Assembly: GCA_021806745.1 (NCBI GenBank)
Contig: JAJZQS010000008.1
Coordinates: 1 to 44,726 of the forward strand
Source of the DNA: a bacterium
GTDB taxonomy: Bacteria > Elusimicrobiota > Elusimicrobia > UBA1565 > UBA9628
Direction of reading: 5' to 3'
Length of the DNA stretch: 44,726 nt
In this document: positions 3,361-36,767 of the stretch, piece after piece
Numbering within the stretch: position 1 is the stretch's first letter
How the letters are laid out: each line of letters opens with the position of its first letter
Notes under the pieces: model-generated
What the model was told of the DNA's origin: nothing
Databases searched by the model: none
What the model saw: only the letters and a program-made list of their open reading frames with translations
Program-made: the position numbers and the translations under genes

Positions 3361-3366
3361 TATACT
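3361..3366 (+). promoter_or_regulatory. -10 element for a probable leaderless transcript
   Basis: TATACT is followed by six C residues and then the ATG at 3373. The distance puts the transcription start on the start codon. No clear -35 is seen and no Shine-Dalgarno is present. Confidence 0.65.
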
Positions 3367-3372
3367 CCCCCC

Positions 3373-6300
3373 ATGTCTCGGGGGATGGCGGCGTGGCTTT
3401 GCGCCGCGACGCTGTTTTTGGCGCCGCGCGCGCGCGCCTTGACCCCGGTCGTCGCCTATCCGGTCACCATCACCAACGGCCAGGCTCTGGGCGGAGTATT
3501 TCAGCAGGCGGTGACCTGGAATCCGTCGCTGTTTTCGACCTTCGAGTCCGCCGACCTGGGCAACATCCGCTTCTGCGCCGACTCGGCCTGCGCGACGCCG
3601 CTCAACGCGTGGCTGGAGGGCTGCTCGCCGTCGGCCTGCGCACCCACGGCCAGCACCGCCACGGCCTGGGTGAACCTGCAGAACGCCGTCCCGGCGCAGG
3701 GCGTGGCCCAGATCTACATCGCCTTCATGGACACGAGCGTCGACTTCGACGCCAACTATTGGGGCGAGTCCATCGACATCGCGCCCGGCTTCGACAACGG
3801 CTCGCTCGTCTTCACCTACTACAACAACGGTCAGGACATCTCCAACTTCACTTTGGCCAACGGCGGCGCGCTGGGCACCACGGTGATGACCAACCCCCTG
3901 GGCGTGTCGACCAATGTGATCACCCTGACCGGCTCCGGCGTCACCACCAACTCCCAGGAGACCGTGGCCTGGTACAACAACGCGGTCTCCAGCGACGACA
4001 TGGTCGTGGAGGGCTGGATCAACATCGGCCCCACCAACAACGCCGGGGTCTACAACCAGAACTGCATGTTCGCCTACCGCGGCGCCAGCGCCTCGCCGAC
4101 TTCTCTCACCAACTACATCGTGGGCATCGGCTGGTCGGGAACTTTCCTTGGCATCGCCTACGAAAACGGCACGACCAACACCTACCTGGGTACCGGCGGC
4201 GGCACGCGCCAGAACGGCTGGTTCTGGTCCTACACCACCTTGGCCGGCACCGCGATGACGGCCAGCGTGTGGAACCAGCCTCCGGAACTGGGCGGCGTGC
4301 AGGCCTCCACCATCACCGTCTCCAACAACCAGATCACCACCAACAGCCCCTACCTGGGCATGGCCAACTGGGCGGGCTCCAACACGCCGTCCTATTTCTA
4401 TCAGTGGCGCGCGCGTCGGTTTCCCCCGGCGGGCGTGCTGCCCACGGCCATCGTCAATGTGCCTCCTCAAAACTGTCAGGGCGTGATCGTCTCCAACCCG
4501 AACCCGACGCAGGCCACGCCGGTCCCTTTCGAGCAATCGCTGACCTTGTACCCGACCACCTACGCCACGCTGGAAAACTCCAATCTCGGCAACGTCCGCT
4601 TCTGCGCCGACTCCAACTGCACCCAGCCGCTGTTCGCGTGGCTGGAAGGCTGCGGGGCGGGAAACGCCGGCTGCACGCCGGCCTCCGGCGCCGCCCAGGT
4701 CTGGGTAAAGCTGACCTCCTCGATCCCCGCCAACGGCACGCAGACCATCTACCAATGCTTCGTGTCCACCAGCCAGACGTTCGACGGAATCTATTGGGGC
4801 CAGTCCACCGACATCGCCGCCGGTCACGACAACGGAAGCTACGTGTTCCCGTTCTACACCAACGGCCAATCGCTGAGCGGATTTTCCCCCGTCGTCAATG
4901 GCGGCGGAGTGACCACGGTCGCCGCCACCAACCCCTACGGAACGAACACGAACCTGATCCAATTGAGTTCCAAGAAGATCTCCAATACCTCCACTGCCCA
5001 CACCGTCGTCTGGACCTCCAGCGGAGTGCTCGGCGACAACATGGTTCTGGAAGGCTGGGTCAACCGCAACACCAGCAACTCCGCCATGCTCTCCGCGCGC
5101 GGCGCCAACGACACGACCCTGACCGACTATCTGCTCGGCGAGCGCTTCAACGGAAAAGCCGCCTCCATCGTTTACGAAAACGCCAATGCCGGGAACATAC
5201 TCTCTTCCGTCGGCAGCAATTTGGGCGCGGGTTGGTATTGGACCGAGGGCGTGATCAGCGGCACGGCGCTGAGCGAAGCGATCTACTCCCAACAGCCCGA
5301 GTTCGGCGGAACTCAGACCGCCACCGCGACCGCCACCGACGCCTCCATCTCCAACGCCAACACCTATGTGGGAATGGCCAACCGCGACAACATCAACGGG
5401 GTCTCGGAATTCTACGAGTGGCGCGTGCGCCACTATTTCCCGGGCGGCACGGGCACCGTCATCGACTCCACCGCGCCCACGACGGTGACCGACCTTGGCG
5501 CCGGGTCTCCCAGTTCGTCGACGGTGCTTTTGACCTGGAGCGCCCCCTCCGACGCCAACTACAACCCGCTCTCGGGCCAGTACGCGATCCAGTACGCGTC
5601 CTACACGGCGGGCGTGGTGTGGTCCACCGCGAACGCTCAAGTGCTGATCTCCACGTCGGGCGTCAGCCCCGGCGCCGCGCAGGGCGCGGTCGTCGGCGGA
5701 CTTCTGTCCAATACCACCTACTTCTTCTACCTGTGGACCCAGGATTCGGGACTGGTCTGGTCGGCGATCTCCAACGGCGCCACCTCTCAAACTTTAGCCG
5801 CCCCCGTCTCCGCCGCCAGCGGCGTGCCGCTGTCGGTGAGCACCTCGGGCGTGGTCGCCGTCGGCTGGACCGCCCTTCCCGCCTCGCCGCAATCGTCCGC
5901 CTGCGAGGGCTATGTCCTCCAGGAATCAAGCACCGACTTCAACGGCGGAACCATCGTCTCGTCTTCCACCCCGAACGGACTGGCCTCGCAACTGACTCTG
6001 TCCGGCCTCAACACGGGGGCAACCATGTACTTCCGCCTGGCCACGCTCAACTGGAGCGCCTCGCCCGACACGGTCACGCTGACGCCCGTCGACCTCCAGG
6101 TCTCGCCCTCCACCGGCCTCATCGTCATGGGCCTGGACGCGACCGTGGCCTTTTCCACCGTCTCGGTCAGTTCCATTGTGGTGACCAATGTCGGCAACTA
6201 TCCTCTGACCTTGATGGTCTCCGGCTCCACGGCCACCGCCGGCTCGCCGTGGGTGCTGGCCATCTCCTCGGGCATCGAGCAGCCGGTCTTGCAGGGCGAG

Positions 6301-6525
6301 TGGAACTCGACCCAGCCCACCCCCGCGAGCTTTACCACCGCCATCACGAGCGCTCCCGTCGCCTCCGGCGCGCTCGGTGGCGCCTACGCCGGCGGCCAGA
6401 GCGGCAAGGCTCTGGCTCCCGGCGCCAGCGTCACGATGTGGTTCCAGTTCTGGGCGCCGAAATCCACCGTCGCCGCCAACGTCCAAGAAGCGCTCCAAGT
6501 GCTCTTCCAGTCCGTCTACCCATGA
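3373..6525 (+). CDS. Large secreted surface protein: two DUF2341/lectin-like repeats plus fibronectin type III domains
   Basis: A 1050-residue protein with an N-terminal signal peptide (hydrophobic AAWLCAATLFLA ending near ARA). Two tandem units of about 343 residues follow, at about 29-371 and 372-705. Each starts with a DUF2341-like part (LGN-I/V-RFCADS, WLEGC, then VWVKL or AWVNL) and continues into a concanavalin-like beta-sandwich. Fibronectin type III-like domains occupy about 705-800 (TVTDLGAGSPSSSTVLLTWS) and 805-905. The last 140 residues form a Ser/Thr/Gly-rich beta domain with no sortase signal or membrane anchor. DUF2341 is known from secreted, often sugar-binding or adhesive, proteins; function here is inference. 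Start MSRGM is chosen for its place behind the -10; MAAWLC four codons later is possible. Confidence 0.85.
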   Translation: MSRGMAAWLCAATLFLAPRARALTPVVAYPVTITNGQALGGVFQQAVTWNPSLFSTFESADLGNIRFCADSACATPLNAWLEGCSPSACAPTASTATAWVNLQNAVPAQGVAQIYIAFMDTSVDFDANYWGESIDIAPGFDNGSLVFTYYNNGQDISNFTLANGGALGTTVMTNPLGVSTNVITLTGSGVTTNSQETVAWYNNAVSSDDMVVEGWINIGPTNNAGVYNQNCMFAYRGASASPTSLTNYIVGIGWSGTFLGIAYENGTTNTYLGTGGGTRQNGWFWSYTTLAGTAMTASVWNQPPELGGVQASTITVSNNQITTNSPYLGMANWAGSNTPSYFYQWRARRFPPAGVLPTAIVNVPPQNCQGVIVSNPNPTQATPVPFEQSLTLYPTTYATLENSNLGNVRFCADSNCTQPLFAWLEGCGAGNAGCTPASGAAQVWVKLTSSIPANGTQTIYQCFVSTSQTFDGIYWGQSTDIAAGHDNGSYVFPFYTNGQSLSGFSPVVNGGGVTTVAATNPYGTNTNLIQLSSKKISNTSTAHTVVWTSSGVLGDNMVLEGWVNRNTSNSAMLSARGANDTTLTDYLLGERFNGKAASIVYENANAGNILSSVGSNLGAGWYWTEGVISGTALSEAIYSQQPEFGGTQTATATATDASISNANTYVGMANRDNINGVSEFYEWRVRHYFPGGTGTVIDSTAPTTVTDLGAGSPSSSTVLLTWSAPSDANYNPLSGQYAIQYASYTAGVVWSTANAQVLISTSGVSPGAAQGAVVGGLLSNTTYFFYLWTQDSGLVWSAISNGATSQTLAAPVSAASGVPLSVSTSGVVAVGWTALPASPQSSACEGYVLQESSTDFNGGTIVSSSTPNGLASQLTLSGLNTGATMYFRLATLNWSASPDTVTLTPVDLQVSPSTGLIVMGLDATVAFSTVSVSSIVVTNVGNYPLTLMVSGSTATAGSPWVLAISSGIEQPVLQGEWNSTQPTPASFTTAITSAPVASGALGGAYAGGQSGKALAPGASVTMWFQFWAPKSTVAANVQEALQVLFQSVYP
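3457..5500 (+). repeat. Tandem 343-residue protein repeat (two units)
   Basis: The segment encoding LGNIRFCADSACATPLNAWLEGC-like sequence at about 3556 recurs as LGNVRFCADSNCTQPLFAWLEGC-like sequence at about 4585, an offset of 1029 bases or 343 codons. Similarity continues through the YWG-S-DIA-G-DNGS and QPPE/QQPE-GG blocks to YQWRARRFPP / YEWRVRHYFP. The two copies have diverged, so the duplication is old. Confidence 0.8.
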
Positions 6526-6565
6526 ACCACTCACTGTTCTTGCCGAGCATTCCCACGGCGGCTTC

Positions 6566-7111
6566 ATGACCGACGCCTCCGGGTCCGAATTCCTCGAACT
6601 TGAGGAGAACGTCCAGATCGACGGCCGCAGTTGGCTGCGGATTCCGCTACAGGTGGCGTTAGCGGCCGTGACGATCGTTTTGACGGCGGCCGGGCTCTTC
6701 TACGCGAATTGCCCGGCGGGCCTCGCGGGCCCGGTCGTATTCGTCGTCGGCGTCGTCGCCTCCTACACAGCCGTGCAACGATTGATCCCCATGCGCGCCG
6801 CGCGCAAGGTTCTGCTGAGCCGAGACGAGGTCAGGTTGATTTCGCCCGACGGCTCCCTGCGGAGTCGGCCGAACAGGGCCGCGAAGGCCCTGGATACCAG
6901 AAATCCCAACGATCTGAGGGTCGCGCTCGACGGGCAAGAACTCGTCTTGCCGCTCTACGCGTCCATTCGCAAGGAACAGTGGGAGCGCATGCGCCGAGAA
7001 TTAGGGAGGACTTCCGGATTTTTCGCGCTTGCCGTTAAGGACGAGAGCATCGTACTCACGGATCCGCACTTTGGATCGGTCATCGCGTTCCCGGATCGCG
7101 CCGGGAGTTGA
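6566..7111 (+). CDS. Small membrane protein of unknown function
   Basis: A 181-residue product that I do not recognise. An acidic N-terminal stretch of about 28 residues is followed by two adjacent hydrophobic segments at about 32-49 and 53-72 (VALAAVTIVLTAAGLFY and PVVFVVGVVASYTAV). A soluble, basic C-terminal domain of about 105 residues follows. The layout, two helices then a cytoplasmic domain with strand-like patches (KVLLSRDEVRLIS, LVLPLYAS), resembles PH-like membrane proteins, but no motif proves it. The ATG at 6566 is the first that puts the two helices near the N-terminus. It begins 40 bases after the surface-protein gene, with no promoter of its own that I can see, so co-transcription is likely. 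Confidence 0.7.
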   Translation: MTDASGSEFLELEENVQIDGRSWLRIPLQVALAAVTIVLTAAGLFYANCPAGLAGPVVFVVGVVASYTAVQRLIPMRAARKVLLSRDEVRLISPDGSLRSRPNRAAKALDTRNPNDLRVALDGQELVLPLYASIRKEQWERMRRELGRTSGFFALAVKDESIVLTDPHFGSVIAFPDRAGS

Positions 7112-7148
7112 TCCGGCCGCGAACCCTTTGGCCGGTGCCCGCGCTTGA

Positions 7149-7154
7149 TATAAT
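7149..7154 (+). promoter_or_regulatory. -10 element for a probable leaderless GTG-start transcript
   Basis: A perfect TATAAT is followed by six bases and the GTG at 7161. A TTGGCC 15 bases upstream is only a weak -35 candidate. No Shine-Dalgarno lies between. Confidence 0.7.
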
Positions 7155-7160
7155 CGCGCG

Positions 7161-8501
7161 GTGTCCTACGACCTGCTCATCGTCGGCGGCGGCGTGACCG
7201 GCGCGGGCGCCGCGCGCGACGCCGCGTTGCGCGGCCTTAAAGTGGCGCTCGTCGAGCGCGGCGAGCCCGGGGGTGCGACCACCGCCGCCTCCACGCACCT
7301 CATCCACGGCGGCGTGCGCTACCTGCTCTACGACCGCCTGACCACCCACGCCACCTGCTGGGACTCCGGCCACATCGTGCGCACCGCCGGAGACCTGCTG
7401 CGCCGCCTGCCCATCGTCTGGCCGGTCTACCGTGGGCACTCGCGGGGACTTGAGACCGTCGAGACCCTGCTCGAGGAATACGACCGCTTCCAGCCGATGA
7501 AATACGGCCGCGCCCACCTGCGCCTGACGCCCGAGGCCTGCGCTCGGATCGTGCCGGGCTTGTCCACGCAAGGACTTCTCGGCGGACTCGCCTTCGACGA
7601 GTGGTGGGTGGACGCCAAAGCCCTGGCCGAACGAACGCTCGACTCCGCGCGCCGAGCCGGCGCGCAAGCCTTCGTCGGCGAAAACGCCGACGAGTTGCTG
7701 CGCGAGGGCGCACGCGTGGTCGGTGCGCGCGCAGGCGGGCGGCAACTGCGCGCCAGGATCACGCTCAACGCCGCCGGACCCTGGGCGGGACGCGTCGCGC
7801 GCCTGGCCGGCGCCGAGGTCCCGCTACGCCTGATGAAGGGCACGCACCTGATCTGGAAGGATCCCGCGCTGACTCCGGTGGGCCTATTGCTTGAGGCCGT
7901 CGACCGCGGCCGCTACGTCTTCGTCGTCCCCTCGCCGCTTGGCACCTGGGTGGGCCCCACCGACTTGCCCGGCCCCGACGATCCCGATCTCGCGCGCACC
8001 GCGCCCGAGGAGATCGATTATCTCGACCGCTCCGTGCGCCGCTATTTTCCCGCCTGGCCCAAGCCCCACGACGCGACGATCGTCGGCTCTCGCCCTCTGC
8101 TCGGACAACCCGGCGCGGAAAAGCTGCTGTCGCGCGACTTCGAGGTGTTCGACCACGAAAACCGGGACGGAGTGCCCGGACTCATCACCGTGGCCGGCGG
8201 AAAAATGTCCGACTATCGCGTGATGGCCGAGGCCGCCGTCGACGCCGCGTGCGCGCGCTTGGGCCTGACCGCGCGCTCGACGACCGCGCAAACCACGCTC
8301 GACGGACTTCCGGTGGGCTCCATCCCGGACTGGCCCAAGCCCTCCGCCGCGCTGAAGCATTTCCTGCGCGAGCGCCCGCGCCTGCGCGAACTGCACGCGC
8401 TCGCGCATCTGGGCGCCGCGTTCGCGGGCCATCTCGCGCGGCGCGCGCGCGGCGCGAGCGCCGCGGCCGACGCGGACGAGTTCCGCCGCCGCTACGCCTG
8501 A
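7161..8501 (+). CDS. glpD: Glycerol-3-phosphate dehydrogenase-type FAD oxidoreductase (GlpD family)
   Basis: GlpD oxidises sn-glycerol-3-phosphate to dihydroxyacetone phosphate at the inner membrane and passes electrons to quinone through FAD. The 446-residue product starts with the FAD-binding Rossmann motif GGGVTGAGAARDAALRG (about 8-24) and VALVERGEPGGATT. The family-specific STHLIHGGVRYL follows. Further hallmarks are NAAGPWAG near 210, MKGTHL near 235, and the late FAD contact TVAGGKMSDYR near 345. It is shorter than E. coli GlpD (about 500 residues) because the C-terminal helical domain is abbreviated. A GTG start at 7161 directly behind a -10 gives the correct N-terminus. A related 2-hydroxyacid oxidase role cannot be excluded. 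Confidence 0.82.
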   Translation: MSYDLLIVGGGVTGAGAARDAALRGLKVALVERGEPGGATTAASTHLIHGGVRYLLYDRLTTHATCWDSGHIVRTAGDLLRRLPIVWPVYRGHSRGLETVETLLEEYDRFQPMKYGRAHLRLTPEACARIVPGLSTQGLLGGLAFDEWWVDAKALAERTLDSARRAGAQAFVGENADELLREGARVVGARAGGRQLRARITLNAAGPWAGRVARLAGAEVPLRLMKGTHLIWKDPALTPVGLLLEAVDRGRYVFVVPSPLGTWVGPTDLPGPDDPDLARTAPEEIDYLDRSVRRYFPAWPKPHDATIVGSRPLLGQPGAEKLLSRDFEVFDHENRDGVPGLITVAGGKMSDYRVMAEAAVDAACARLGLTARSTTAQTTLDGLPVGSIPDWPKPSAALKHFLRERPRLRELHALAHLGAAFAGHLARRARGASAAADADEFRRRYA

Positions 8502-8536
8502 GCGCCTCGGCCCTGGCGCGGCGCGAAAGTCCGACC

Positions 8537-8542
8537 TATACT
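8537..8542 (+). promoter_or_regulatory. -10 element for a probable leaderless transcript
   Basis: TATACT lies six bases before the ATG at 8549 and 36 bases after the upstream gene ends. No Shine-Dalgarno is present. Confidence 0.65.
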
Positions 8543-8548
8543 GTCGCC

Positions 8549-10573
8549 ATGCCCCTCCGGCGAGCGATCGCCGCCCTTGTCGTCTGCTTGGCCGCCGCGT
8601 CGGCGCGCGGCGCAGGCTTCGGCGCCATCCCGATGGGAAAATGCGTCGGCGCCTCTCCTGCGGCGCCCTTGCCCGAGGGGCCCGCGCTCGATCTGAGTGC
8701 CGAACCGCAGTCCGGGGAAATCCGCGAACGCTTGAAAGCCGCGGGCTTTAGCGTCTCCTCCGACGGACGCCGCGCCCTCGATGCCCAGGGACGACCGCTG
8801 ACCGCCGCGTACCTGCGCTGGCTGGAGTCTCCGGCCGATTTCTCGACGCTGCACCCGCCGCAATCCTTGTGGGCCGCGCTGCAGGGCGCGGGCTATCGCC
8901 TCGATGAATCCGACTGCCGCCTGTCCAAGATCGACGGCGGCGCCCTGAGCAACTGGCAATACCTGTCGGCCGGCCGGTCGGACTCCGGCGGGACCCAACT
9001 CACCGCGCTCGAGACGCTTCTGGCTTCTCTCGACGCTCTGCCCCCGAGCGCACCCGTGCCTCCCAGGATTCTGGCCCGCATGAAGGAGCTCGAAAAAGCC
9101 GGCTCGGCGCTGCCGCCGAGCGTGCTCGCAGACCTCGCGGCCAAAGGCGCCACGGCGGGCCAAGTGGCCGGCGACGCCAGAGTTCTCTACCAACGCCAGT
9201 CGGCCGAATTCGACGGCGCCTTGACCCTGGGAGCGCTCGCGAAAAGCGACGCGGCCGGCGTCGTTTGGAGCCCCGGCCCCGCGGGCAAGCCGGGGCCGAT
9301 CACATCCGCTCAGGCCAAGCTCGGCTCCCTCCTCGCCTCCGACGTCGTCGCGGCTCTCTCGCGCTCGCAGACCGGCCGACGACTCCTGAGCCATTTCCGC
9401 GGAAAAGACGGAAGCCTGAAGCTGCCGCAGTTTCTCGTGATCAAGACCAACCAGCGCCCGGACACCCCGGGACAATACGGCGCCTATTTCTCGTCCGACG
9501 AGGACACGATGGTGCTCAACCATTGGCAGGCCGAAGACAGCCTCCTCGAGCACATGACTCTCGCGGAAAAAAAACGGTTCGCCGACCGTCTCTCGGACCC
9601 CGACGCCCTCGGCCGCTATCTTGAAGCCCACCCGCCCGAGCGCGCACGGGTCATCGGAGACATCGACGAAATCTTCTACCACGAACTCGTGCACGCCTGG
9701 CAGGACCGCCGCAGCCGCCTGGACGTGGCGATGAACGCCGGCATCATCCCCGGCTACAATCCGCTTGAAAAGGAATACGAGGCCTATCGCGACCAGATGC
9801 GCTACGACTTCGACAAATCCCGCGCGAAACCGGACGCCGCGGCCGACTCCGGCTATGTGCGCGGCTACTGCGGGTTCCCCCTCTTGAAAAGCTACGGCGA
9901 ATTCACGACGGTCATCGAGCGCAGCTACATGAGCTCGTTCGTGGGCATGCTCCCGCTCCAGGACATCGCCTTCATCCAGAAGGAACGAGAGCGCGCGTCC
10001 ATGCCCCGGATCGGCGACGGGCTCTACCGCGACGCCGTCCAATCGCTGAAGATGGTCGGACTCTGGCGCGGCGACTCCGTGCTCCACCAGGCGATCACCG
10101 ACGCGAGAGCGCGCGCGAACGCGTTTCGCGCCGGGGATTTGCCCGCGATGCGAGCGCGGGCGCTCGGCCCCCTGCCGACGGCCTACGAAGGCGAGGGGCA
10201 CTTCGATTGGGCCATCGACTTCATCGGCGCGGTCTCGCCCACAAACCCCGGAGTCAAGACGGCCGTCCAGAACTGGGCTCGCGCCGCCAAGCCGTCTTGG
10301 ACGAAGCTCGACGGCGAGCACTTGTTCGAGCAGACTTCCGCGATCAAGAGCTACATGAAATACGCGAGCCTAGGCATCCTTGCGCCTGACGCCGCGGTCC
10401 GCGCCGAATACGCCCGCGGCGTCCACGACTACATCGACGCGATCCTCCAGGACAAATCCGCCGGCCCCGCGCAGAAGAAGGTCTGGGCCGCCGAGGCCGT
10501 CGGCCTCGGCGCGTTCCTGCCCAAAGACGATCCTTGGCTGCGAAAAATCGCTCCGCCGGACCCGCCGAGATGA
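8549..10573 (+). CDS. Secreted protein with an HExxH zinc-protease-like motif
   Basis: A 674-residue protein with a signal peptide (MPLRRAIAALVVCLAAASARGA). The N-terminal 300 residues are Ala/Leu-rich and not recognised. At 378-382 it reads HELVH within DEIFYHELVHAWQDRR, the HExxH zinc-binding and catalytic motif of gluzincin/zincin peptidases. E411 in EYEAYRDQ, 29 residues after the second His, is a plausible third ligand. The C-terminal 200 residues look helical. No known family was recognised, so metallopeptidase activity is inferred from the motif alone. The long upstream extension of the frame into glpD is rejected because the -10 sits just before 8549. Its stop overlaps the following lipoprotein start as ATGA. 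Confidence 0.75.
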   Translation: MPLRRAIAALVVCLAAASARGAGFGAIPMGKCVGASPAAPLPEGPALDLSAEPQSGEIRERLKAAGFSVSSDGRRALDAQGRPLTAAYLRWLESPADFSTLHPPQSLWAALQGAGYRLDESDCRLSKIDGGALSNWQYLSAGRSDSGGTQLTALETLLASLDALPPSAPVPPRILARMKELEKAGSALPPSVLADLAAKGATAGQVAGDARVLYQRQSAEFDGALTLGALAKSDAAGVVWSPGPAGKPGPITSAQAKLGSLLASDVVAALSRSQTGRRLLSHFRGKDGSLKLPQFLVIKTNQRPDTPGQYGAYFSSDEDTMVLNHWQAEDSLLEHMTLAEKKRFADRLSDPDALGRYLEAHPPERARVIGDIDEIFYHELVHAWQDRRSRLDVAMNAGIIPGYNPLEKEYEAYRDQMRYDFDKSRAKPDAAADSGYVRGYCGFPLLKSYGEFTTVIERSYMSSFVGMLPLQDIAFIQKERERASMPRIGDGLYRDAVQSLKMVGLWRGDSVLHQAITDARARANAFRAGDLPAMRARALGPLPTAYEGEGHFDWAIDFIGAVSPTNPGVKTAVQNWARAAKPSWTKLDGEHLFEQTSAIKSYMKYASLGILAPDAAVRAEYARGVHDYIDAILQDKSAGPAQKKVWAAEAVGLGAFLPKDDPWLRKIAPPDPPR

Positions 10574-13758: not shown

Positions 13759-13773
13759 CGTCGTGAAGACGCT

Positions 13774-13779
13774 ATTCTA
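13774..13779 (-). promoter_or_regulatory. -10 element upstream of the cysteine desulfurase operon
   Basis: On the minus strand GGTAGAAT occurs with its last base 15 bases before the ATG at 13758. This predicts a very short leader of about 8 bases without a Shine-Dalgarno. No clear -35 is seen. Confidence 0.45.
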
Positions 13780-16552: not shown

Positions 16553-16581
16553 TGGACAAGCCGTAGCGCGCCTGATACACT
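16553..16581 (+). promoter_or_regulatory. Promoter for a probable leaderless transcript
   Basis: TGGACA (16553-16558), a 17-base spacer and TACACT (16576-16581) lie with the -10 six bases before the ATG at 16588. This is one of the clearest two-box promoters of the leaderless group. Confidence 0.75.
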
Positions 16582-18381: not shown

Positions 18382-18408
18382 ATTATAACCTCGCGGCGGC
18401 GATTTCAA
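18382..18408 (-). promoter_or_regulatory. Promoter for a probable leaderless transcript (S1/P1 nuclease)
   Basis: On the minus strand TATAAT is followed by GAAAAC (six bases) and the ATG at 18375. TTGAAA lies 15 bases upstream of the -10 as a possible, short-spaced -35. Confidence 0.7.
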
Positions 18409-25421: not shown

Positions 25422-25427
25422 AGTGTA
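25422..25427 (-). promoter_or_regulatory. -10 element for a probable leaderless transcript
   Basis: TACACT on the minus strand followed by GTGTTC (six bases) and the ATG at 25415. No convincing -35 and no Shine-Dalgarno. Confidence 0.6.
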
Positions 25428-25489: not shown

Positions 25490-25519
25490 TTGACGCGGAC
25501 CGGGCGACCCGCCTACACT
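25490..25519 (+). promoter_or_regulatory. Promoter for a probable leaderless transcript
   Basis: TTGACG (25490-25495), an 18-base spacer and TACACT (25514-25519), then GGGGC and the ATG at 25525. Both boxes are good and the -10 to ATG gap is five bases. Confidence 0.75.
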
Positions 25520-25986: not shown

Positions 25987-25995
25987 GCCAAACCC

Positions 25996-28181: not shown

Positions 28182-28206
28182 GGCGGAAATCCTCCCCTGA
28201 ATTTTC

Positions 28207-28212
28207 TAGGAT
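28207..28212 (+). promoter_or_regulatory. -10 candidate for a leaderless or near-leaderless transcript
   Basis: TAGGAT lies seven bases before the ATG at 28220. The box matches the consensus at four of six positions (T, A, A and T), so it is one of the weaker members of the group. Confidence 0.4.
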
Positions 28213-28219
28213 GCTCCCC

Positions 28220-29197: not shown

Positions 29198-31848
29198 GCC
29201 GCTTTCAGCGGCGCCTCGAAGGCGCCTCGCAGGGCCTCGTCCGCGACGACGACCGCGACCAGCCTTTCAGGATCAAGCCGCGCGCGTACGACCTCCATCG
29301 CCCGCCGCGGCGTGACCGCGGCCAGGCGCTCGGGATAGGACGCGATGGCCTCGGCTGGGTCGCGGCCGCTCTCGACGACCGCGGCCAGATAGCCTGCCAC
29401 GCGGTCAAGCGCGGACAGACGCAAGCGAAACAGCCCCGACAGGTGCCGCCGCGAAGCGGCCAGCGCCTCCTCGCCGAGCGGCTCGTCGCGCAGCGCGCGG
29501 ACCTCGGCGACGATCTCGTCGAGCGCCGCGCGCGCGGCGTCGGGCCGCACGTCGGCCGAGGCCGACCACACCGAACCGCGGCCGTAGACCTCGATGGACG
29601 AGTAGGCGCCGTAGGTGTAGCCGCGGCGCGTGCGCAGGTTCTCGAACAGCCGCGAGTTCGCGGTTCCGCCCAGAGCGTGGTTGGCCGTCGCGAAGACGAC
29701 GTAGTCCGGATCGCGCGGAGTCAAATCCATCGGCGCGGCGACCACGAGGGTCGCCTGGGCCGAGCCGGGGCGAGGCACGAACGCCGAGCGGGCCGGCCTC
29801 GGCGCGGGCAGCGGCGGCGGCTCGGCCGGCGCGCCGGAGCCGGACCAGGACGAAAACGCGGCCTCCAGCGCGCGCCGCGCCGCCTCCGCCTCCAAGTCCC
29901 CGACCAAGACCAGGTAGCCTCCGGCGGGGCGCAGGCGCAGGCGGCGCCATTGGCGCAGGCGCCGCGCGTCTACGGCGGCGATCTCCGCTTGCGACAGCGC
30001 CCCGCGCGCGTAGGGATGGCCCGAAAAGAGCTCGGCGCGCAGGCGTTCCTCGGCCAAGAACGACGGCTGCGTACGGCGCATCGCCAGTTCCTCGACGGCG
30101 TTTTCCCGCCACAGCGACACCTCGTCGTCGGGAAAAGACGCGCCCAGGACGGCCCGAGACAGCTCCGCGCAAAACGGCGCGAAACCGCGCGCCAGCCCCG
30201 AGGCCGAGATCTTCAGCCACTCGGTCTCGCCCGACGCCGCGGCCGACCAACCCAGTTCGGCCAGCGCCGCGGCCACCTGCGCGGCGCTGCGCCCCTCGTC
30301 GCCCTTGAACAGAAGCTCCTCGCAAGCCAGCGACAGCCCCTGCTCGCCGCCCGCCTCGTGCGCGCGGCCGGCGCGCAGGCCCAGCCGAGCCTCGATCAGC
30401 GGCAGGCGCGAGTCGCGCGCCAGCAGAACCTCCAGCCCGCACGAAAGAGTGAAACGCTCGATCTTGGGAACCGACGGCGCTCGCGGCGCCGCGGGCGCGG
30501 GAGGCTTGGCGCCGCGCGGGCGCGCGTCTTCGGCGGGAAGCGGCGCGTCGACGCGCTCGGCCGGGCGCGGCCGCGCGGATTCGGGCGCCGGCGCGATCTC
30601 AAGCCGCGCGCGGCCGCGCTCGCCCAGCCAGCGCCCGACCGCGCGGCGCACGCCCGGCGCGCTTACGGCCAGCAAGCGCCGGAAATCCCGCTCCAAGCCG
30701 GAGACGTCGCCGATGAGCGCGGCGTAGGAGCTCAGCATCTGCGCGCGCTCGGCCGGCGAGATCTGCCCCTCGAGCCAGGAGCGCTCCAATTGGATCTTGG
30801 CGCGCGAAAGTTCCCGCTCGGAGGGGCCGTCGCGGCGGAAGCGCTCGATCACGGCCAGCAGCGCCGCCGCGGCCGCGTCGAAGTCGGCGTCGGCGCGCAG
30901 GGTCGCGAAAATTCCCAGCAGGTCGGTTCCGCGCCAACTGGAGTGGCTCGACCAATACGGCATGTGCGCGCTGACCGACAGCGCCAGCTTGCTTTCCTTG
31001 ACCAGCGCCGCGAACAACGGGCTGTCCTCGCCGCCGCCGAGGATCGCCGCCAGCGCGCTCAGCGCCCAATAGTCGGGGCAGCCCCGCTTGGGCAGGCGCC
31101 AGCCGAAGACGAGCAGAGGGTTGGCTGCAAGCGGATCCGCGACGCGGCCGCGGCGCTCGGGCCCGCGCGCGGGCTCGGGCGCCGCGCGCCGCGCGGGGCG
31201 CGCGCGGCGCGCGATCCGACCGAAGTGCCGCTCGACTAGACGCCGGGCCTGCGAGACCGTCACGTCGCCGACCAGCGCCAGCACGGCGTTGTCGGGCGCG
31301 TAATGCCCGTCGTAGAAGCGCCGCACGTCGTCAAGAGTCGCCGCGCGCAGGTCGTCGGCGTCGCCGATGGTCGGGTGAGCGTTCTCCCAACGCGAGAAGG
31401 CCAGAGCCGCCATGCCGGCGTCGGTGGCGCGGCGGTAGGGTTGATTGTCGTAGGTCTGGGCCATCTCCTCCAGCACCACGCGCTTCTCGACTTCGAGCTC
31501 GCGCGCGGAGATCAGAAGACCGCGCATGCGATCGGCCTCGGCCCAAAGCACCGCCTCCAGCGCCTCCGAGGGCACGATCTCGTGGTAGGTCGTGTTCGTC
31601 TTCATCGTGTAGGCGTTGTCGATTCCGCCGCAGGACTCGACGAGGCGCGATATCGCGTTCGGAGGCAGATTGGCCGTTCCTTGGAACATCAGGTGCTCGA
31701 ACAGGTGGGCGAAGCCCGCGCGCCCCCGCTCCTCGTCCATCGAGCCCACGCGGTAGGTCAGAGAGAGCGCAACCAAAGCGACGGAGCGGTCGGTCTGCAC
31801 GACGACCTTTAGACCGTTGGCCAATTTAAACGTGCGCGTGGGCATCAT
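29194..31848 (-). CDS. M16-family zinc peptidase, two fused halves
   Basis: An 884-residue inverzincin with the M16 arrangement of an active and an inactive half in one chain, like pitrilysin. The first half has the inverted zinc motif H48-L-F-E51-H52 in GFAHLFEHLMFQG, with the third ligand at E127 or E128 in KRVVLEEMAQ. VGDV near 200 ends the first domain. A Pro/Ala-rich linker at about 425-470 joins the halves. The second half (SLACEELLFKGDEG near 535) lacks HxxEH, and RRGYTYGAYSS near 745 carries the substrate-binding R/Y pair typical of M16 partners. No signal peptide is visible, so cytoplasmic or unconventional location. The start is MMPTRT or the next Met. Confidence 0.92.
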   Translation of the reverse strand: MMPTRTFKLANGLKVVVQTDRSVALVALSLTYRVGSMDEERGRAGFAHLFEHLMFQGTANLPPNAISRLVESCGGIDNAYTMKTNTTYHEIVPSEALEAVLWAEADRMRGLLISARELEVEKRVVLEEMAQTYDNQPYRRATDAGMAALAFSRWENAHPTIGDADDLRAATLDDVRRFYDGHYAPDNAVLALVGDVTVSQARRLVERHFGRIARRARPARRAAPEPARGPERRGRVADPLAANPLLVFGWRLPKRGCPDYWALSALAAILGGGEDSPLFAALVKESKLALSVSAHMPYWSSHSSWRGTDLLGIFATLRADADFDAAAAALLAVIERFRRDGPSERELSRAKIQLERSWLEGQISPAERAQMLSSYAALIGDVSGLERDFRRLLAVSAPGVRRAVGRWLGERGRARLEIAPAPESARPRPAERVDAPLPAEDARPRGAKPPAPAAPRAPSVPKIERFTLSCGLEVLLARDSRLPLIEARLGLRAGRAHEAGGEQGLSLACEELLFKGDEGRSAAQVAAALAELGWSAAASGETEWLKISASGLARGFAPFCAELSRAVLGASFPDDEVSLWRENAVEELAMRRTQPSFLAEERLRAELFSGHPYARGALSQAEIAAVDARRLRQWRRLRLRPAGGYLVLVGDLEAEAARRALEAAFSSWSGSGAPAEPPPLPAPRPARSAFVPRPGSAQATLVVAAPMDLTPRDPDYVVFATANHALGGTANSRLFENLRTRRGYTYGAYSSIEVYGRGSVWSASADVRPDAARAALDEIVAEVRALRDEPLGEEALAASRRHLSGLFRLRLSALDRVAGYLAAVVESGRDPAEAIASYPERLAAVTPRRAMEVVRARLDPERLVAVVVADEALRGAFEAPLKAA

Positions 31849-31889
31849 GGCCGTGATGATCCCATATCCGCGGCCGCCGCGCCAGACGC

Positions 31890-31917
31890 CTGACGCCGCC
31901 GGGCAAACTGCTACAAT
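31890..31917 (+). promoter_or_regulatory. Promoter for a probable leaderless transcript (helicase)
   Basis: CTGACG (31890-31895), 16 bases and TACAAT (31912-31917), then GCGGG and the ATG at 31923, a five-base gap. Confidence 0.65.
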
Positions 31918-31922
31918 GCGGG

Positions 31923-33134
31923 ATGGATTTCTCCTCTTTCGGCCTGGGCTCGGCGCTGGACGCGGGCCTGCGCGAGCAGGGCTACCTCACGCCCACGCCG
32001 ATCCAGGCGCAGGCCATCCCGCTCGCGCTCGCCGGCCGGGACTTGCTCGGCTTGGCCCAGACGGGAACCGGCAAGACCGCCGCATTCGCCCTGCCCATCC
32101 TCAAGCGCCTGGGCGCGGGGCCGCGCGGCGCGGCGCGGGCGCTGGTGATCGCGCCCACGCGCGAGCTCGCCGAGCAAATCAGATCCGGCTTCGCGGCGCT
32201 GGGCAAGCACACGGGCCTGCGCGCGGTCGCCGTCTACGGCGGCGTGAGCGCCCACGCGCAAATCCAGGCGCTGCGCGGCCATGCGGAGATCGTCGTCGCC
32301 TGTCCGGGACGCCTGCTCGACTTGCTGGGGCAAGGGCATTTCTCGCCGCGCCAGATCGAGACGCTGGTGCTCGACGAGGCCGACCAACTGCTGGACATGG
32401 GCTTCTTGCCCGATGTGCGGCGCATCCTCGCGCGCCTGCCCGCCGCGCGCCAAACCATGCTCTTCTCGGCGACGATGCCCGACGAACTGCGGAGCCTGGC
32501 CCACGAGTGCCTGAAAAACCCCGAGACCGTCTCGGTCAAGCACGCCGAGCCCCTGGCCACGGTCACGCACGCGCTGTTTCCCGTGGTCGAACACCTGAAA
32601 ACGCCGCTGCTGCTGGAACTCATCCGCCGCGCGGGCTCTGAATCCATCCTGGTCTTCACCAAGACCAAGCACCGCGCTCGGCGCGTGGCCGAGAAGGTCA
32701 AGGCCGCGGGCTGGGCATCGGCCGACTTGCAGGGCAATCTCTCCCAAAACCGCCGCCGCGCCGCGATGGACGGCTTTCGCTCCGGGAAAATACATGTTCT
32801 CGTGGCCACCGACATCGCCGCGCGCGGCATCGACGTCTCCCAGATCACCCACGTGATCAACTACGACATCACCGACACGCCCGAGGCCTATGTGCACCGC
32901 ATAGGACGCACCGGCCGCGCCGCCAAGACCGGCGACGCCTACACCCTGGTCACGAGCCAAGACGACGGCATGGTACGCGTCATCGAACGCAAACTCGGCC
33001 GGGCCATCGAGCGGCGCACGCTGGATCACTTCGACTACCGCGCCGGCCCGGCCAATTCCGGACAGAAAGGCGGCCCGTCGACGGGCGGCTCCTCCGGCCG
33101 CCCGTTCTGGCGCAAGCGGCGCCGTCCGCGCTGA
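31923..33134 (+). CDS. DEAD-box RNA helicase (RhlE-like)
   Basis: DEAD-box helicases unwind RNA duplexes in ribosome assembly and mRNA decay. The 403-residue protein contains the whole motif set: Q-motif (PTPIQAQAIP), AQTGTGKT, PTRELAEQ, CPGRLLDLL, DEAD, FSATMP, VFTKTKH, VATDIAARGIDV and HRIGRTGRA. The C-terminal tail is short and basic with Gly/Ser (ending RPFWRKRRRPR), as in RhlE-type enzymes, and may bind RNA. Among the paralogues (RhlE, SrmB, DbpA, CsdA) RhlE is the closest by length and tail, but I leave the symbol blank. The next gene begins four bases after its stop, so they are co-transcribed. Confidence 0.95.
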   Translation: MDFSSFGLGSALDAGLREQGYLTPTPIQAQAIPLALAGRDLLGLAQTGTGKTAAFALPILKRLGAGPRGAARALVIAPTRELAEQIRSGFAALGKHTGLRAVAVYGGVSAHAQIQALRGHAEIVVACPGRLLDLLGQGHFSPRQIETLVLDEADQLLDMGFLPDVRRILARLPAARQTMLFSATMPDELRSLAHECLKNPETVSVKHAEPLATVTHALFPVVEHLKTPLLLELIRRAGSESILVFTKTKHRARRVAEKVKAAGWASADLQGNLSQNRRRAAMDGFRSGKIHVLVATDIAARGIDVSQITHVINYDITDTPEAYVHRIGRTGRAAKTGDAYTLVTSQDDGMVRVIERKLGRAIERRTLDHFDYRAGPANSGQKGGPSTGGSSGRPFWRKRRRPR

Positions 33135-33138
33135 CCTT

Positions 33139-33921
33139 ATGCTCGCCCTGCTCGCCTTCCCGCTGGCGGCCGCGCTGGCCTCGCCGCCGGCCGTGCGCCT
33201 GACCCCGGAACAGGCCCGCGAGATCGGCCTGAAAATCTGGCACAATGAAGCCGGCGGACAGGTGCGTCTGCTGACGGACTGGAACAAGGGCGAGGCGTTC
33301 GGTTCCTTCGGCATCGGCCACTTCATCTGGTATCCAGCCGGGGAGCGCGGCCCGTTCACGGAGAGCTTTCCCGGCGCGCTCGACGCGATCGCCGCCTCCG
33401 GGGCGGCGCTGCCCGCGTGGCTGAGAGGCCATCCGCACTGCCCGTGGCCGAACCGCGAGGCGTTCTACAAGGATTTCGACGGCGAACGCCTGACGGCGCT
33501 GCGCGCTCTGCTCGCGAGCACGGTGGACGCCCAGGCGATGTACGCGGTCGCGCGCATGGAAAACTCCCTGCCCGAGATCTTGGCCGCCGCCGAGAGCTCC
33601 GAGCGCGCGGCCCTGCAGGCGCGCTTCGACGCGGTGGCCGCCGCGCCCAACGGCGTCTACGCGCTGGTCGACTACGTCAACTTCAAGGGCGAAGGAGTCA
33701 ATCCCTCCGAGCGCTACGACGGTCTGGGCTGGGGCCTGCTGCAAGTTCTCGAGTTGATGGGCGACGCGGCGCCGGGCCAGCCCGCGGTCGAGGCCTTCGA
33801 GCTCGGCGCCGAGGCGGCGCTCAAGCGCCGCGTGGCCCACGCCCCTCCGGGGCGGCGCGCCCTCGAACGCGGTTGGCTGCCCGGCTGGCTGGCCCGCGTG
33901 AAGACCTACCTCGAGCCCTGA
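33139..33921 (+). CDS. Secreted lysozyme-like family protein of unknown function
   Basis: A 260-residue protein with a signal peptide (MLALLAFPLAAALASPP). The main feature is GLKIWHNEAGG near 30-40 followed by LLTDWNKGEAFGSFGIGHFIWYP and GPFTESFPG. A Glu in 'W.NE.gG' followed by 'G.SFGiGHF.WyP' is a pattern I recall from an uncharacterised proteobacterial family and is similar in layout to lysozyme-like folds (catalytic Glu, then a Gly-rich beta hairpin). YALVDYVNFKGEG near 175 is also conserved-looking. Peptidoglycan cleavage is inference. It follows the DEAD-box gene by four bases, an odd pairing of a cytoplasmic RNA helicase with a secreted protein. Confidence 0.7.
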   Translation: MLALLAFPLAAALASPPAVRLTPEQAREIGLKIWHNEAGGQVRLLTDWNKGEAFGSFGIGHFIWYPAGERGPFTESFPGALDAIAASGAALPAWLRGHPHCPWPNREAFYKDFDGERLTALRALLASTVDAQAMYAVARMENSLPEILAAAESSERAALQARFDAVAAAPNGVYALVDYVNFKGEGVNPSERYDGLGWGLLQVLELMGDAAPGQPAVEAFELGAEAALKRRVAHAPPGRRALERGWLPGWLARVKTYLEP

Positions 33922-33929
33922 GCGCGTCT

Positions 33930-33946
33930 TGGCGATTTGATCGCCA
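33930..33946 (+). terminator. Small inverted repeat, possible weak terminator
   Basis: TGGCGAT-TTG-ATCGCCA, a 7-bp hairpin nine bases after the stop codon, followed by TTTGACC. It is short, so this may be a weak terminator or an operator. Confidence 0.35.
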
Positions 33947-33975
33947 TTTGACCCCCCACCCGCGTCCGCTTCACC

Positions 33976-33981
33976 TATGAT
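33976..33981 (+). promoter_or_regulatory. -10 candidate upstream of the OB-like secreted protein
   Basis: TATGAT lies 64 bases before the ATG at 34046. No good -35 is seen at 16-18 bases. A leader of about 57 bases would contain the GGAG ribosome site. Confidence 0.35.
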
Positions 33982-34045
33982 GGCCTCGACGCCGGCCGCC
34001 CGGTCACGCCGGCTCAAGAACGACACGACGCCTGGAGACACCTGC

Positions 34046-34621
34046 ATGAACATTCGCCACGAATCGACGCTCGCGCGCATCCTCGTCCTCGGCTCCGTCC
34101 TCGCGCTCCCCGGCTTGGCCGCGGCGCAGGACTCTTCCGCCAATTCCAACCCCAACGGCCAGAGCGCTCCGGCCGCCGCCCCCGCCGCAACCCCCGCCCC
34201 GGCGCCCGCCGCCGCGCCCGCAGCGGCCCCCGCCCCGGCGCCCGCCGCCATGCCGGCCCCGGCTCCCGCCGCGGCCCCGGCCGCCTCCCCGGCCGCGACG
34301 CCCGCTCCCGCCCAGGGCGGCCTGATGCACGACATCAAGAAGGACGTCGAGCACGCCGACCGCGACGTCAAGAACGCCCTGGACCCCGACCGCGTGCGCC
34401 ACTACACCGGCACGGTCAAGAGCGTGGACGCAGCCGCCCACACGCTCGTGCTCGTCAGCTCCAAAGGCAAGACGCGGACCTTCCCGCTGCCCGCTGAGGT
34501 CAAGGTCATGAAGGGCAAGACCGCCGCCGCCCTTTCGGACGTGGCCGCCGGAGCGAAGGTGCGCGTGTCCTACCGCCTGAAGAAGGACGCGACCGAAGTC
34601 CAGGGGCTCGAGCTCAAGTAA
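34046..34621 (+). CDS. Secreted Ala/Pro-rich protein with small C-terminal beta domain
   Basis: A 191-residue protein. The signal peptide (HESTLARILVLGSVLALPGLAAA) is followed by about 65 residues of Ala-Pro repeats (PAPAPAAAPAAAPAPAP and similar), a likely extended spacer through the periplasm. The C-terminal 90 residues begin with a charged helix (MHDIKKDVEHADRDVKNA). They continue with strands HYTGTVKSVDAAAHTLVLVS, RTFPLPAEVKVMKG and GAKVRVSYRL. This 'G.V.sVd...tlvl....g....f....v.v' order resembles DUF5666/OB-like domains; function is unknown. ATG 34046 is chosen over upstream starts because it has GGAG nine bases ahead and begins the signal peptide. It ends at a strong terminator. Confidence 0.8.
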   Translation: MNIRHESTLARILVLGSVLALPGLAAAQDSSANSNPNGQSAPAAAPAATPAPAPAAAPAAAPAPAPAAMPAPAPAAAPAASPAATPAPAQGGLMHDIKKDVEHADRDVKNALDPDRVRHYTGTVKSVDAAAHTLVLVSSKGKTRTFPLPAEVKVMKGKTAAALSDVAAGAKVRVSYRLKKDATEVQGLELK

Positions 34622-34639
34622 ACGCCCGCACGCAGAAGG

Positions 34640-34671
34640 CCCCGCTCCGCGGCGCGGAGCGGGGTTTTTTT
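34640..34671 (+). terminator. Rho-independent terminator
   Basis: CCCCGCTCCGC, a GGC loop and GCGGAGCGGGG form an 11-bp hairpin followed directly by seven T residues. It is 18 bases after the stop of the upstream gene and is the clearest intrinsic terminator in the window. Confidence 0.95.
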
Positions 34672-34685
34672 GCGCGCGGCGCGTC

Positions 34686-36182
34686 TCAGCGGTAGTAGGC
34701 GCTCGGGTTGTAGATCCAGTAGGCGTCGAACGGGCGCAGCGGCGGCAGGCGCACGAAGCGCTGGCCGCGCTCGTCGGTGGTCTCGGCAAGGCCGAAGAGG
34801 AGCTTGGGCTTGTCCGTGGATGTGTCGCCCGGCTTCTTGATCTGTCCGGTCTCGCGCACCTCGCTGACCGTGTGGTCCACCCATTTGAGCGCCACGGCCT
34901 TGTCGGCGAACTCCTCCCAGTCGCCGTCGGAGTTGTGCTTGTACATGTCCTTGACGAAGGCGTCCAGGGACATGCCCATCTTGGCCGCCACGGGAGACGC
35001 CAGGCGCTGGAACCACTCCTTGTTGATGGCCAACTGCTCGGCCTGCTCGGTCATGTTGCCGAAGGCGCCGGAGATCATCTGGTGGTGCAAGATGATGGCG
35101 TTCGGGTAGGCGTAGGAGTGCGGCGCGAGCGTGGTGATGACGGCGGCCATGCTGGCGGCGAATGACTTGACGAGCACGTGCACGGGCGCCTGGCTTGTCT
35201 GGATCGCCTTGACGATCCGGTAGCCCTCCATCACCGAGCCGCCGGGGCTGTCGTCGATGACGATGAAGATCGGCAGCTTCGGATCTATGTTGTTGAAGTA
35301 GTGAATGCGCTCGGTCACGTAGTCCGCCGTTCCGGGAACGATGGGGCCGTCGAGCGCGATGCGCCGGTCGGAGATCGTCAGCACGCCGTCATGGAACGGC
35401 TCCAGCGGGTAGTCGGGGTCGCGGTTGGCCTGAGACTTCCACTCCTCCTTCTTGTCGCGCAGCGCGAGATCCGCTTTGATGGCCACGGTCTTGTTGTCGG
35501 CCTCGTCGGCCTCCACGCGCAGGCGGCGCTCGCGCAAATCCAAGTCGCGCATGGCCAAGTCGATCTTGAGCTTCACGCCGTCTCCGACGATGCGGTCGGC
35601 GTCGTATTTTTCCTGCGCGATCTCGTTGAGCAGGTGCAGGCGGTCGCGCTCCTCGGTCAGCGGCTCGGTCTCTTTTTTAAACCGTTCCGCGACGATCGAA
35701 GCCTCCAACTCGAGCTTGCGCAGTTCCGCTTCCAACGGAGCCAGGTCCACGTTCCGTTTTTCGATCGCCGCTCCGTAGCGCGCGGCGTTCTCGTCGCGCT
35801 CCTCGGTCACGGGCCGCATCCGGGCCTGGAATTTCTGCGTCGCGATCATGTTCTCGGTCGAGAGCCTGTCGAACTCCTGGCGCTGCGGGCCGCCGCACAT
35901 CGGCGCCGTCGGCGAAAACATTCCGCCCATGGGCGACGACGCCCCCGTCGGCGGGAGCATCGACGGCAAGCCGGGAGACGGCGTCAAGGCGGGCGCGACC
36001 GTCTTGATTTTCGCCGCGGGGGCCGCGGACATCGATGAGCTCGCCGCCGACGCAGACGCCGCGGAGGGCGCGGACGCGGCGGGAGCGGGCTCGGGCAAAT
36101 CCACCGGCGTCGAAACGGAATCCGCCCGCGCCACGGCGGCAGCACCCAAGGCCGCCGAGGCCAACAGCCAAATCGATTTCAT
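34686..36182 (-). CDS. Secreted ClpP-fold serine protease with N-terminal coiled coil
   Basis: A 498-residue protein. A signal peptide (MKSIWLLASAALGAAAVARA) and an 80-residue Ser/Ala/Pro linker are followed by a charged coiled coil at about 105-250 (AELRKLELEASIVAERFK). The ClpP-type domain spans about 265-440. Catalytic residues line up with ClpP: IDDSPGGSVMEG for the oxyanion strand, S344 in SFAASMAA, H367 in ILHHQMISG, and D421 (or D419) in NSDGDW, followed by ALKWVDHTV. ClpP is normally cytoplasmic and works with an AAA+ unfoldase; a periplasmic version with its own coiled-coil arm is not a family I recognise. The start has AGGAGA seven bases upstream. Confidence 0.85.
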   Translation of the reverse strand: MKSIWLLASAALGAAAVARADSVSTPVDLPEPAPAASAPSAASASAASSSMSAAPAAKIKTVAPALTPSPGLPSMLPPTGASSPMGGMFSPTAPMCGGPQRQEFDRLSTENMIATQKFQARMRPVTEERDENAARYGAAIEKRNVDLAPLEAELRKLELEASIVAERFKKETEPLTEERDRLHLLNEIAQEKYDADRIVGDGVKLKIDLAMRDLDLRERRLRVEADEADNKTVAIKADLALRDKKEEWKSQANRDPDYPLEPFHDGVLTISDRRIALDGPIVPGTADYVTERIHYFNNIDPKLPIFIVIDDSPGGSVMEGYRIVKAIQTSQAPVHVLVKSFAASMAAVITTLAPHSYAYPNAIILHHQMISGAFGNMTEQAEQLAINKEWFQRLASPVAAKMGMSLDAFVKDMYKHNSDGDWEEFADKAVALKWVDHTVSEVRETGQIKKPGDTSTDKPKLLFGLAETTDERGQRFVRLPPLRPFDAYWIYNPSAYYR

Positions 36183-36251
36183 CGGTCTCTCCTGAAAGAC
36201 GCCCGAAGGATAGACCAGGCGCGAAAAATCGTCAAGGCCGCACGGCGGCGG

Positions 36252-36755
36252 CTACGGCGTCGGAGCGCAGGCGGGAGCGGCGTCAACCCAGTCCTTGCGG
36301 TAGGCCGAACAAGTGGCCACGGCCTGCGACGACGCCTGGGCGCGCGAGGTCTCCACGGGGCTTGCGAAGACGACCGGCTCCACGGGGCCGGTCAGCGTCA
36401 CCGTCTCCCAGTCGCCGTAGGCGTCCGACGGGCACTGCGCGATCGCGCGGCGCACGACCGAGTACTGCGCGTGGCCCTGCCAGAGCCCCTCGGGCTGGTC
36501 GACATAACCCAAGAAGCAGTCCGTGGCCTTGACCAAGCACCACGACAGCACGCGGCAGTCCGGCGGCACGAACGACGCGGACTGGAAGAGGGAGACCGAT
36601 TCCAGAGGCGGGAGCGCCGCGGAGCGCTGCGCGCGCGCCGACTCTCCCGCCGTCGCGGAGGCCTGCGCGAACGCGTCCGTCAGCGTCGATTGCGCCCGCG
36701 CGGAAAGCGCGCACGCCAGCACGGCCGCGGCGAGGATCGTTGGTTTCGTGCTCAT
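36252..36755 (-). CDS. Small secreted cysteine-containing protein
   Basis: A 167-residue protein with a signal peptide (STKPTILAAAVLACALSARA). The mature part has six cysteines (DCRVLSWCLVKATDCFLGY, AQCPSD, ATCSAY, PACAP), so three disulfides are plausible in the periplasm. No domain is recognised. An Ala/Gln/Ser-rich lead of about 45 residues precedes the Cys region, and strands such as DWETVTLTGPVEPVVFASP follow. It is transcribed toward the ClpP-type gene with a 69-base gap, and may be in the same unit. It is preceded by a TACAAT box six bases before its ATG. Confidence 0.75.
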   Translation of the reverse strand: MSTKPTILAAAVLACALSARAQSTLTDAFAQASATAGESARAQRSAALPPLESVSLFQSASFVPPDCRVLSWCLVKATDCFLGYVDQPEGLWQGHAQYSVVRRAIAQCPSDAYGDWETVTLTGPVEPVVFASPVETSRAQASSQAVATCSAYRKDWVDAAPACAPTP

Positions 36756-36761
36756 GCGCTC

Positions 36762-36767
36762 ATTGTA
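36762..36767 (-). promoter_or_regulatory. -10 element for a probable leaderless transcript
   Basis: TACAAT on the minus strand, followed by GAGCGC (six bases) and the ATG at 36755. It fits in the 24-base gap after the RND gene, and any -35 would lie inside that gene. Confidence 0.65.

Follow-up and report, generated by a model that had tools for sequence, protein, structure and literature searches.

How do genes start in a bacterium where a promoter element sits directly against the start codon? The question is raised by a window of 44,726 nucleotides, the whole stretch of DNA that was analysed, which is one contig (JAJZQS010000008.1, assembly GCA_021806745.1) of a draft metagenome-assembled genome (MAG) of Elusimicrobiota (2,776,616 bases in 183 contigs, 93.6% complete). 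Ten genes of the window carry a hexamer of the form TANNNT, as in a bacterial -10 box, just upstream of the start codon. The original prediction took these boxes as a sign of widespread leaderless transcription, that is, of mRNAs that begin at the start codon. All ten hexamers lie where they had been placed, on the strand claimed for them, and in each case an ATG or GTG five to seven bases further on opens a frame of 153-1050 amino acids (aa). The number of bases between box and start codon is called the gap below.

A -10 box at a fixed distance from ATG and GTG

The distance was studied in a genome sample of 61 pieces, the window among them. It comprises 795,525 bases, or about 29% of the genome, at 68.2% G+C. 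In a scan that uses no gene knowledge, TANNNT was counted on both strands ahead of a chosen triplet, at all gaps between 0 and 30. Before ATG, gaps 5-9 hold 24, 84, 48, 30 and 34 boxes and the other gaps 14-26, with about 21 expected at gap 6. For GTG, gap 6 stands at 49 and the other gaps at 10-33, with about 19 expected. TTG (19), ATC (24), CTG (32) and AAG (28) have no peak at gap 6 in the same scan, and the start codon behind the gap-6 box is hence ATG or GTG, not TTG. The sharp peak that the original prediction expected of such a scan is thus present in the sampled 29% of the genome, centred on gap 6 with gap 7 next.

Gene calls lead to the same result. They were made with a simple codon model, in which only the coding score and the start codon decided where a gene begins; it gave 757 genes in the sample, 700 of them usable. 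TANNNT occurs at gap 6 in 65 of these and at each gap from 12 to 40 in 0-7, and among 1,280 three-letter spaced hexamers it ranks first for enrichment at gap 6 (65 found, 2.9 expected). The 36 gene calls of the window alone have it at gaps 5, 6 and 7 in 2, 7 and 2 cases, and elsewhere between gaps 0 and 40 in 0-2 cases per gap. That the spacing exceeds chance, as had been claimed from ten sites, holds outside the window as well: in the remaining 664 genes gap 6 is occupied 79 times, whereas gaps 20-40 average 6.6 (Poisson P about 1e-55; this count also admits nearby in-frame ATG or GTG codons). Genes with TANNNT at gap 5-8 before an ATG or GTG at or near the called start are referred to as leaderless candidates. 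They number 159 of 700, with 23-30 expected (four shifted gap ranges give 28, 30, 23 and 27), which leaves about 130 genes, or 19% of 700, beyond background. A small negative control from E. coli K-12 had no gene with the box at gap 6 (47 coding genes from a single 50 kb stretch; the other two of its 49 were incomplete and dropped).

The boxes are sigma-70-type promoters, with a -35 element, an extended -10 element or both in register with the -10 box. Of the 159 candidates, 60 have a TG dinucleotide where an extended -10 element would place it (0-14 at other offsets, except 24 and 29 inside the -35 region), and a TTG 23 bases before the box, corresponding to a 17-base spacer, in 27 of them (0-7 at other offsets); neither element played a part in choosing the 159 genes. 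The commonest boxes are TATAAT (23 of 159), TAGAAT and TATGAT. We considered that the TG might be the stop codon of an upstream gene and rejected this, since 22 of the 159 boxes follow a TGA and only 3 of these triplets are called upstream stops. A cytosine at position -1 was also tried as an initiator mark, and adds little, since it is frequent in all classes of start (108 of 159 leaderless candidates, 128 of 229 starts led by a Shine-Dalgarno (SD) site, 154 of 312 others).

The genome has one RpoD, in which regions 2.4, 3.0 and 4.2 of sigma-70 are recognisable by eye, by comparison with E. coli sigma-70. Region 2.4 of the RpoD in L167 reads WWIRQSINRA, and its E. coli counterpart WWIRQAITRS. 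T440 of E. coli sigma-70 contributes to recognition of the initial T in the -10 box; the matching residue of the L167 protein appears to be an asparagine.

The candidates differ from SD-led genes in their place within transcription units, which were deduced from gene spacing only, a unit-first gene being one with no same-strand gene within 40 bases upstream. Among genes that have any upstream neighbour in the sample, one of this close kind is present for 32 of 152 leaderless candidates and for 155 of 226 SD-led genes (Fisher P 3e-20), so that 120 of 152 and 71 of 226, respectively, are unit-first. Leaderless candidates make up 120 of all 319 unit-first genes, a raw share of about 38%. A crude signal-peptide score is reached by 52 of the 120 and by 59 of the 199 other unit-first genes, a weak difference (P 0.015).

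Two or more initiation modes coexist in the genome, in line with the original prediction, which named two. SD-type motifs are found in 229 of 700 genes, by a loose rule that in control stretches matches 73 of 700; neither signal is present in 312 genes. Of the SD-led genes that had been named in the window, thiC alone was checked. This gene (1257-2906, minus strand) has GAGGAGG just before its ATG and is preceded by a thiamine pyrophosphate (TPP) riboswitch, and it provides the leadered contrast case. A 16S rRNA was not found in the MAG; a complete relative has CCTCC at the 3' end of its 16S rRNA (GGATCACCTCCTTTC).

Recurrence in relatives and in single orthologues

The signal is clear in this genome, in 19 relatives and in the class Elusimicrobia, and weak outside the class. 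The pattern TATAATN4-9ATG occurs 60 times in this genome and 2 times in reversed form. In the 19 relatives, drawn from the genus and the order, it likewise always exceeds the reversed-pattern control, least markedly in G002 (43 against 11). A complete relative (CP096137) has 84 sites against 10, with gaps of 5, 6, 7 and 8 in 9, 42, 22 and 11 cases. A survey of 198 genomes of the phylum compared TATAAT sites at gap 5-8 with those at gap 21-24, from manually transcribed rows. The 95 genomes of the class, this one included, have 10,456 near-gap and 6,320 far-gap sites, the near gap being higher in 94 genomes and more than 1.3-fold higher in 87. Outside the class (103 genomes) the figures are 18,592 and 16,713, with the near gap higher in 82 genomes and more than 1.3-fold higher in 10, but chance counts, judged from the reversed pattern, are much higher in most of these genomes and the power is accordingly low. 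Mycolicibacterium failed as a positive control, with 1 site against 6 in reversed form, TATAAT being too rare there.

Single genes were followed by eye. The FAD-dependent oxidoreductase of the window has 16 close matches at 70-79% identity, 14 of them labelled Elusimicrobia or Elusimicrobiota; the 17th match, from Mycolicibacterium, is at 31%. The assignment of the genome to the phylum Elusimicrobiota comes from this protein similarity and not from a tree. Fourteen starts could be compared, that of this genome and those of 13 close matches; the other three of the 16 are cut by a contig end before the N terminus. A -10 box at gap 5-7 is present in 6 of the 14 (this genome, L095, L099, L104, L106 and L108), and the bases between box and start mostly differ among these six. 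The box lies at gap 10-11 in L103 and L107. The remaining six have no -10 box, and in five of them the upstream sequence looks like a gene that reaches the start.

For the DEAD-box helicase, 19 of 20 loci could be compared (L125 lacks the N terminus), 13 of them close. Among the 13, a box at gap 5-7 before ATG or GTG is found in this genome only, and in L120 a gap of six bases separates TACAAT from a CTG. The S1/P1 nuclease was found in 2 of 17 genus genomes searched.

Six paralogues of the helicase (L126-L131) carry an extended -10 element, TTTGCTACAAT, TTTGCTACACT or TTTGATACAAT (TACAAT or TACACT), at gap 11-13 before ATG. This spacing suggests leaders of about 5-7 bases.

Probable leaderless transcription and its alternatives

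The boxes belong to ordinary promoters of the housekeeping sigma factor (-35 TTG, 17-base spacer, extended TG, -10 TANNNT). Transcription would then start about seven bases past the box, at the A or G of the start codon or within a base or two of it. The mRNA would thereby be without a 5' leader and without an SD site, and the ribosome would have to recognise a 5'-terminal AUG or GUG directly. This mode would serve about a fifth of the sampled genes, mostly those first in their unit, beside SD-led and closely packed genes. Leaderless transcription is very probably the best reading of the boxes five to eight bases before start codons.

The promoters might be real and the true start codons might lie further downstream, so that the mRNAs have ordinary leaders. 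The start codons are predicted from sequence, and at the first site of the window the gene caller passed over the proposed ATG at 3373 for an in-frame one 12 bases further on, at 3385. However, an unrelated promoter would not hold a fixed gap, and the peak stands at one exact distance to ATG and GTG, with none for TTG. Internal in-frame ATG and GTG codons have no dominant peak either (10 at gap 6, 0-15 at other gaps), and signal-peptide-like N termini, judged by eye, start right at the proposed codon in 7 of the 10 window genes. Downstream starts are thus improbable. We give still less credit to the idea that TANNNT is an A/T-rich translation enhancer or an unstructured patch, for instance for ribosomal protein S1, although S1 sites are brought up in PMC5397173 as one alternative explanation for A/T biases near the -10 position. 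An enhancer of this kind was rejected because TANNNT outranks all other three-letter spaced hexamers at its place and carries in-register -35 TTG and TG elements with a 17-base spacer, which are elements of a DNA promoter; candidate starts are also rare inside tightly packed same-strand runs. The ten sites were, finally, freely chosen in an open scan of the window, and ten coincidences might have been picked from 45 kb. This is the least credible explanation of all, refuted by the independent sample, since the peak recurs with the window excluded and in the 19 related genomes against the reversed-pattern control.

Several observations weigh against leaderless transcription as a complete or uniform account. 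The gene starts are those called in this analysis, over 29% of the genome. At the candidate starts SD 4-mers are scarce (7 of 159; a control stretch further upstream has them in 16 of 159), but partly by construction, because the box occupies much of the place of an SD site. As claimed, AGGA, GGAG and GAGG are absent from all ten gaps; this does not extend to the box at 28207, TAGGAT, which itself holds AGGA eight bases before the ATG, at SD distance. Since this box also overlaps an in-frame ATG at 28211, the site, one of the ten, is ambiguous. Gaps 8-12 are above background in the 700 genes too, and some mRNAs thus probably have leaders of a few bases. Among the orthologues, 8 of 14 oxidoreductase starts are without a -10 box at gap 5-7, and 9 of the 12 other close DEAD-box helicases, from the genus, have a GGAG-containing site. 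The architecture appears general, judging from these comparisons, and single genes seem to move in and out of it, so that a given gene does not reliably retain the mode.

In scans without gene knowledge, small samples from four relatives (G013, 81,646 bases; G105, 87,433; G038, 200,000; G030, 50,216) also lacked a clear TANNNT peak. One of these relatives belongs to the order and two to the class, and one lies outside the class. In G038 alone, TATAAT-like boxes that precede a frame of at least 80 aa do rise at gap 6 (two box patterns give 14 and 10, against 0-9 elsewhere), and whole-genome TATAAT sites in G013 number 69 at gap 5-8 against 16 at gap 21-24. We treat the four samples as underpowered, yet they speak against a strong effect everywhere. 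Finally, the nucleotide at which transcription starts and direct initiation by the ribosome are what we infer from the sequence; with leaderlessness itself understood in this way, the leaderless reading of the original prediction is supported.

Sites in the window and comparison with known systems

The window was listed for every ATG, GTG or TTG that lies 4-8 bases after a TANNNT and opens a frame of at least 100 aa. Table 1 includes an eleventh site, at 41839, which the original prediction did not contain. Both -35-like boxes of that prediction, upstream of the -10 boxes at 16576 and 25514, were found by eye, as was the TG of the extended -10 element at 7149, 16576, 31912 and 36762.

Table 1. 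Promoter boxes, start codons and a riboswitch in the window (N termini and -35-like boxes by eye)
Feature	Position	Strand	Gap or spacer (bases)	Start codon	Gene or remark
TPP riboswitch	2977-3085	-			before thiC
-10 box TATACT	3361-3366	+	gap 6	ATG 3373	1050 aa, no Pfam match, signal-peptide-like N terminus
Extended -10 TGATATAAT, hexamer TATAAT	7149-7154	+	gap 6	GTG 7161	FAD-dependent oxidoreductase, DAO family, 7161-8501
-10 box TATACT	8537-8542	+	gap 6	ATG 8549	674 aa, no Pfam match, signal-peptide-like N terminus
-35-like box TGGACA	16553-16558	+	spacer 17		to -10 at 16576
Extended -10 TGATACACT	16576-16581	+	gap 6	ATG 16588	207 aa, no Pfam match
-10 box TATAAT	18382-18387	-	gap 6	ATG 18375	S1/P1 nuclease
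-10 box TACACT	25422-25427	-	gap 6	ATG 25415	565 aa
-35-like box TTGACG	25490-25495	+	spacer 18		to -10 at 25514
-10 box TACACT	25514-25519	+	gap 5	ATG 25525	153 aa, lipoprotein-like N terminus
-10-like box TAGGAT	28207-28212	+	gap 7	ATG 28220	325 aa; ambiguous
Extended -10 TGCTACAAT	31912-31917	+	gap 5	ATG 31923	DEAD-box helicase
Extended -10 TGATACAAT	36762-36767	-	gap 6	ATG 36755	167 aa, signal-peptide-like N terminus
-10 box TAAAAT	41839-41844	+	gap 7	ATG 41852	ZIP-like transporter, below Pfam cut-off; eleventh site

At the minus-strand site at 25422, an in-frame GTG (25421) abuts the box six bases before the ATG, and the coding-score caller chose the GTG. A scan of viral contigs for thiC gave nothing useful.

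The start of the ZIP-like transporter is accompanied by a 7-base inverted repeat, seen by eye (TGATAAT, 8 bases, ATTATCA; 41831-41852), which overlaps the -10 box and ends on the A of the start codon. A whole-length palindrome test at this site gave no match. The repeat resembles an operator of the Fur/Zur type. If it is one, a metal regulator would have its site on the promoter and on the first base of the leaderless mRNA of a ZIP-like transporter.

A search of open-licence PubMed Central literature found no report of leaderless expression in Elusimicrobia or Elusimicrobiota; one paper gives nothing more than an anti-SD type for the phylum, and another deals with a mycobacterial chaperone. 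A survey of 953 genomes describes the same class of signal in other phyla and does not name Elusimicrobia in the parts compared, but its lumped row "Other Bacteria" (8 of 20 genomes) may include an Elusimicrobium (PMC3160421). Because of this row and the open-licence scope of the search, priority cannot be claimed. Use of leaderless genes is uneven over the bacterial phyla, and one class that uses them heavily beside sister classes that do so much less would offer a natural comparison in a largely uncultured phylum; the same survey argues that leaderless mRNAs are a clue to early translation initiation (PMC3160421). In practice, gene-start annotation of Elusimicrobiota MAGs should permit a -10 box immediately upstream of the start codon.

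In the survey, leaderless genes with TANNNT amount to about 19% in Actinobacteria and about 39% in Deinococcus-Thermus, with lower rates in several other groups (PMC3160421). We lean towards regarding the class Elusimicrobia as a further bacterial stronghold, apart from these two. About a fifth of genes, and a raw share of about 38% of unit-first genes, would be expressed there from a full -35/TGn/-10 promoter joined directly to the start codon, a mode that would be weak or absent in sister classes and between which and SD-led initiation orthologues would switch.

Deinococcus-Thermus resembles the present case in a TANNNT box about 6-7 bp before the open reading frame, recently studied in Deinococcus (PMC12340547), in genes with GGAG-type ribosome binding sites alongside, and in high G+C (PMC12340547, PMC3160421). 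It differs in that TACACT is the commonest box there, with nearly a third of D. radiodurans genes concerned, whereas here it is TATAAT, and 159 of 700 genes, about 19% after background, are concerned. In mycobacteria, mapped transcription starts confirm leaderless transcripts, which in M. tuberculosis account for about a quarter of the genes with a mapped primary start (PMC3898074, PMC4633059). The TANNNT form of the -10 box and the restriction of leaderless starts to ATG and GTG (PMC4633059) are shared with the genome studied here. In contrast, TGN accompanies only 7% of TANNNT promoters in M. tuberculosis and no -35 motif was detected (PMC3898074, PMC4633059), whereas TG is found here in 60 and the -35 TTG in 27 of 159 cases; the published sets comprise all mapped promoters, and ours leaderless candidates only. 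The promoter form thus differs in degree from that of M. tuberculosis. The phenomenon is real and, as far as we infer, correctly interpreted in the main: it is a known mechanism in a new lineage.

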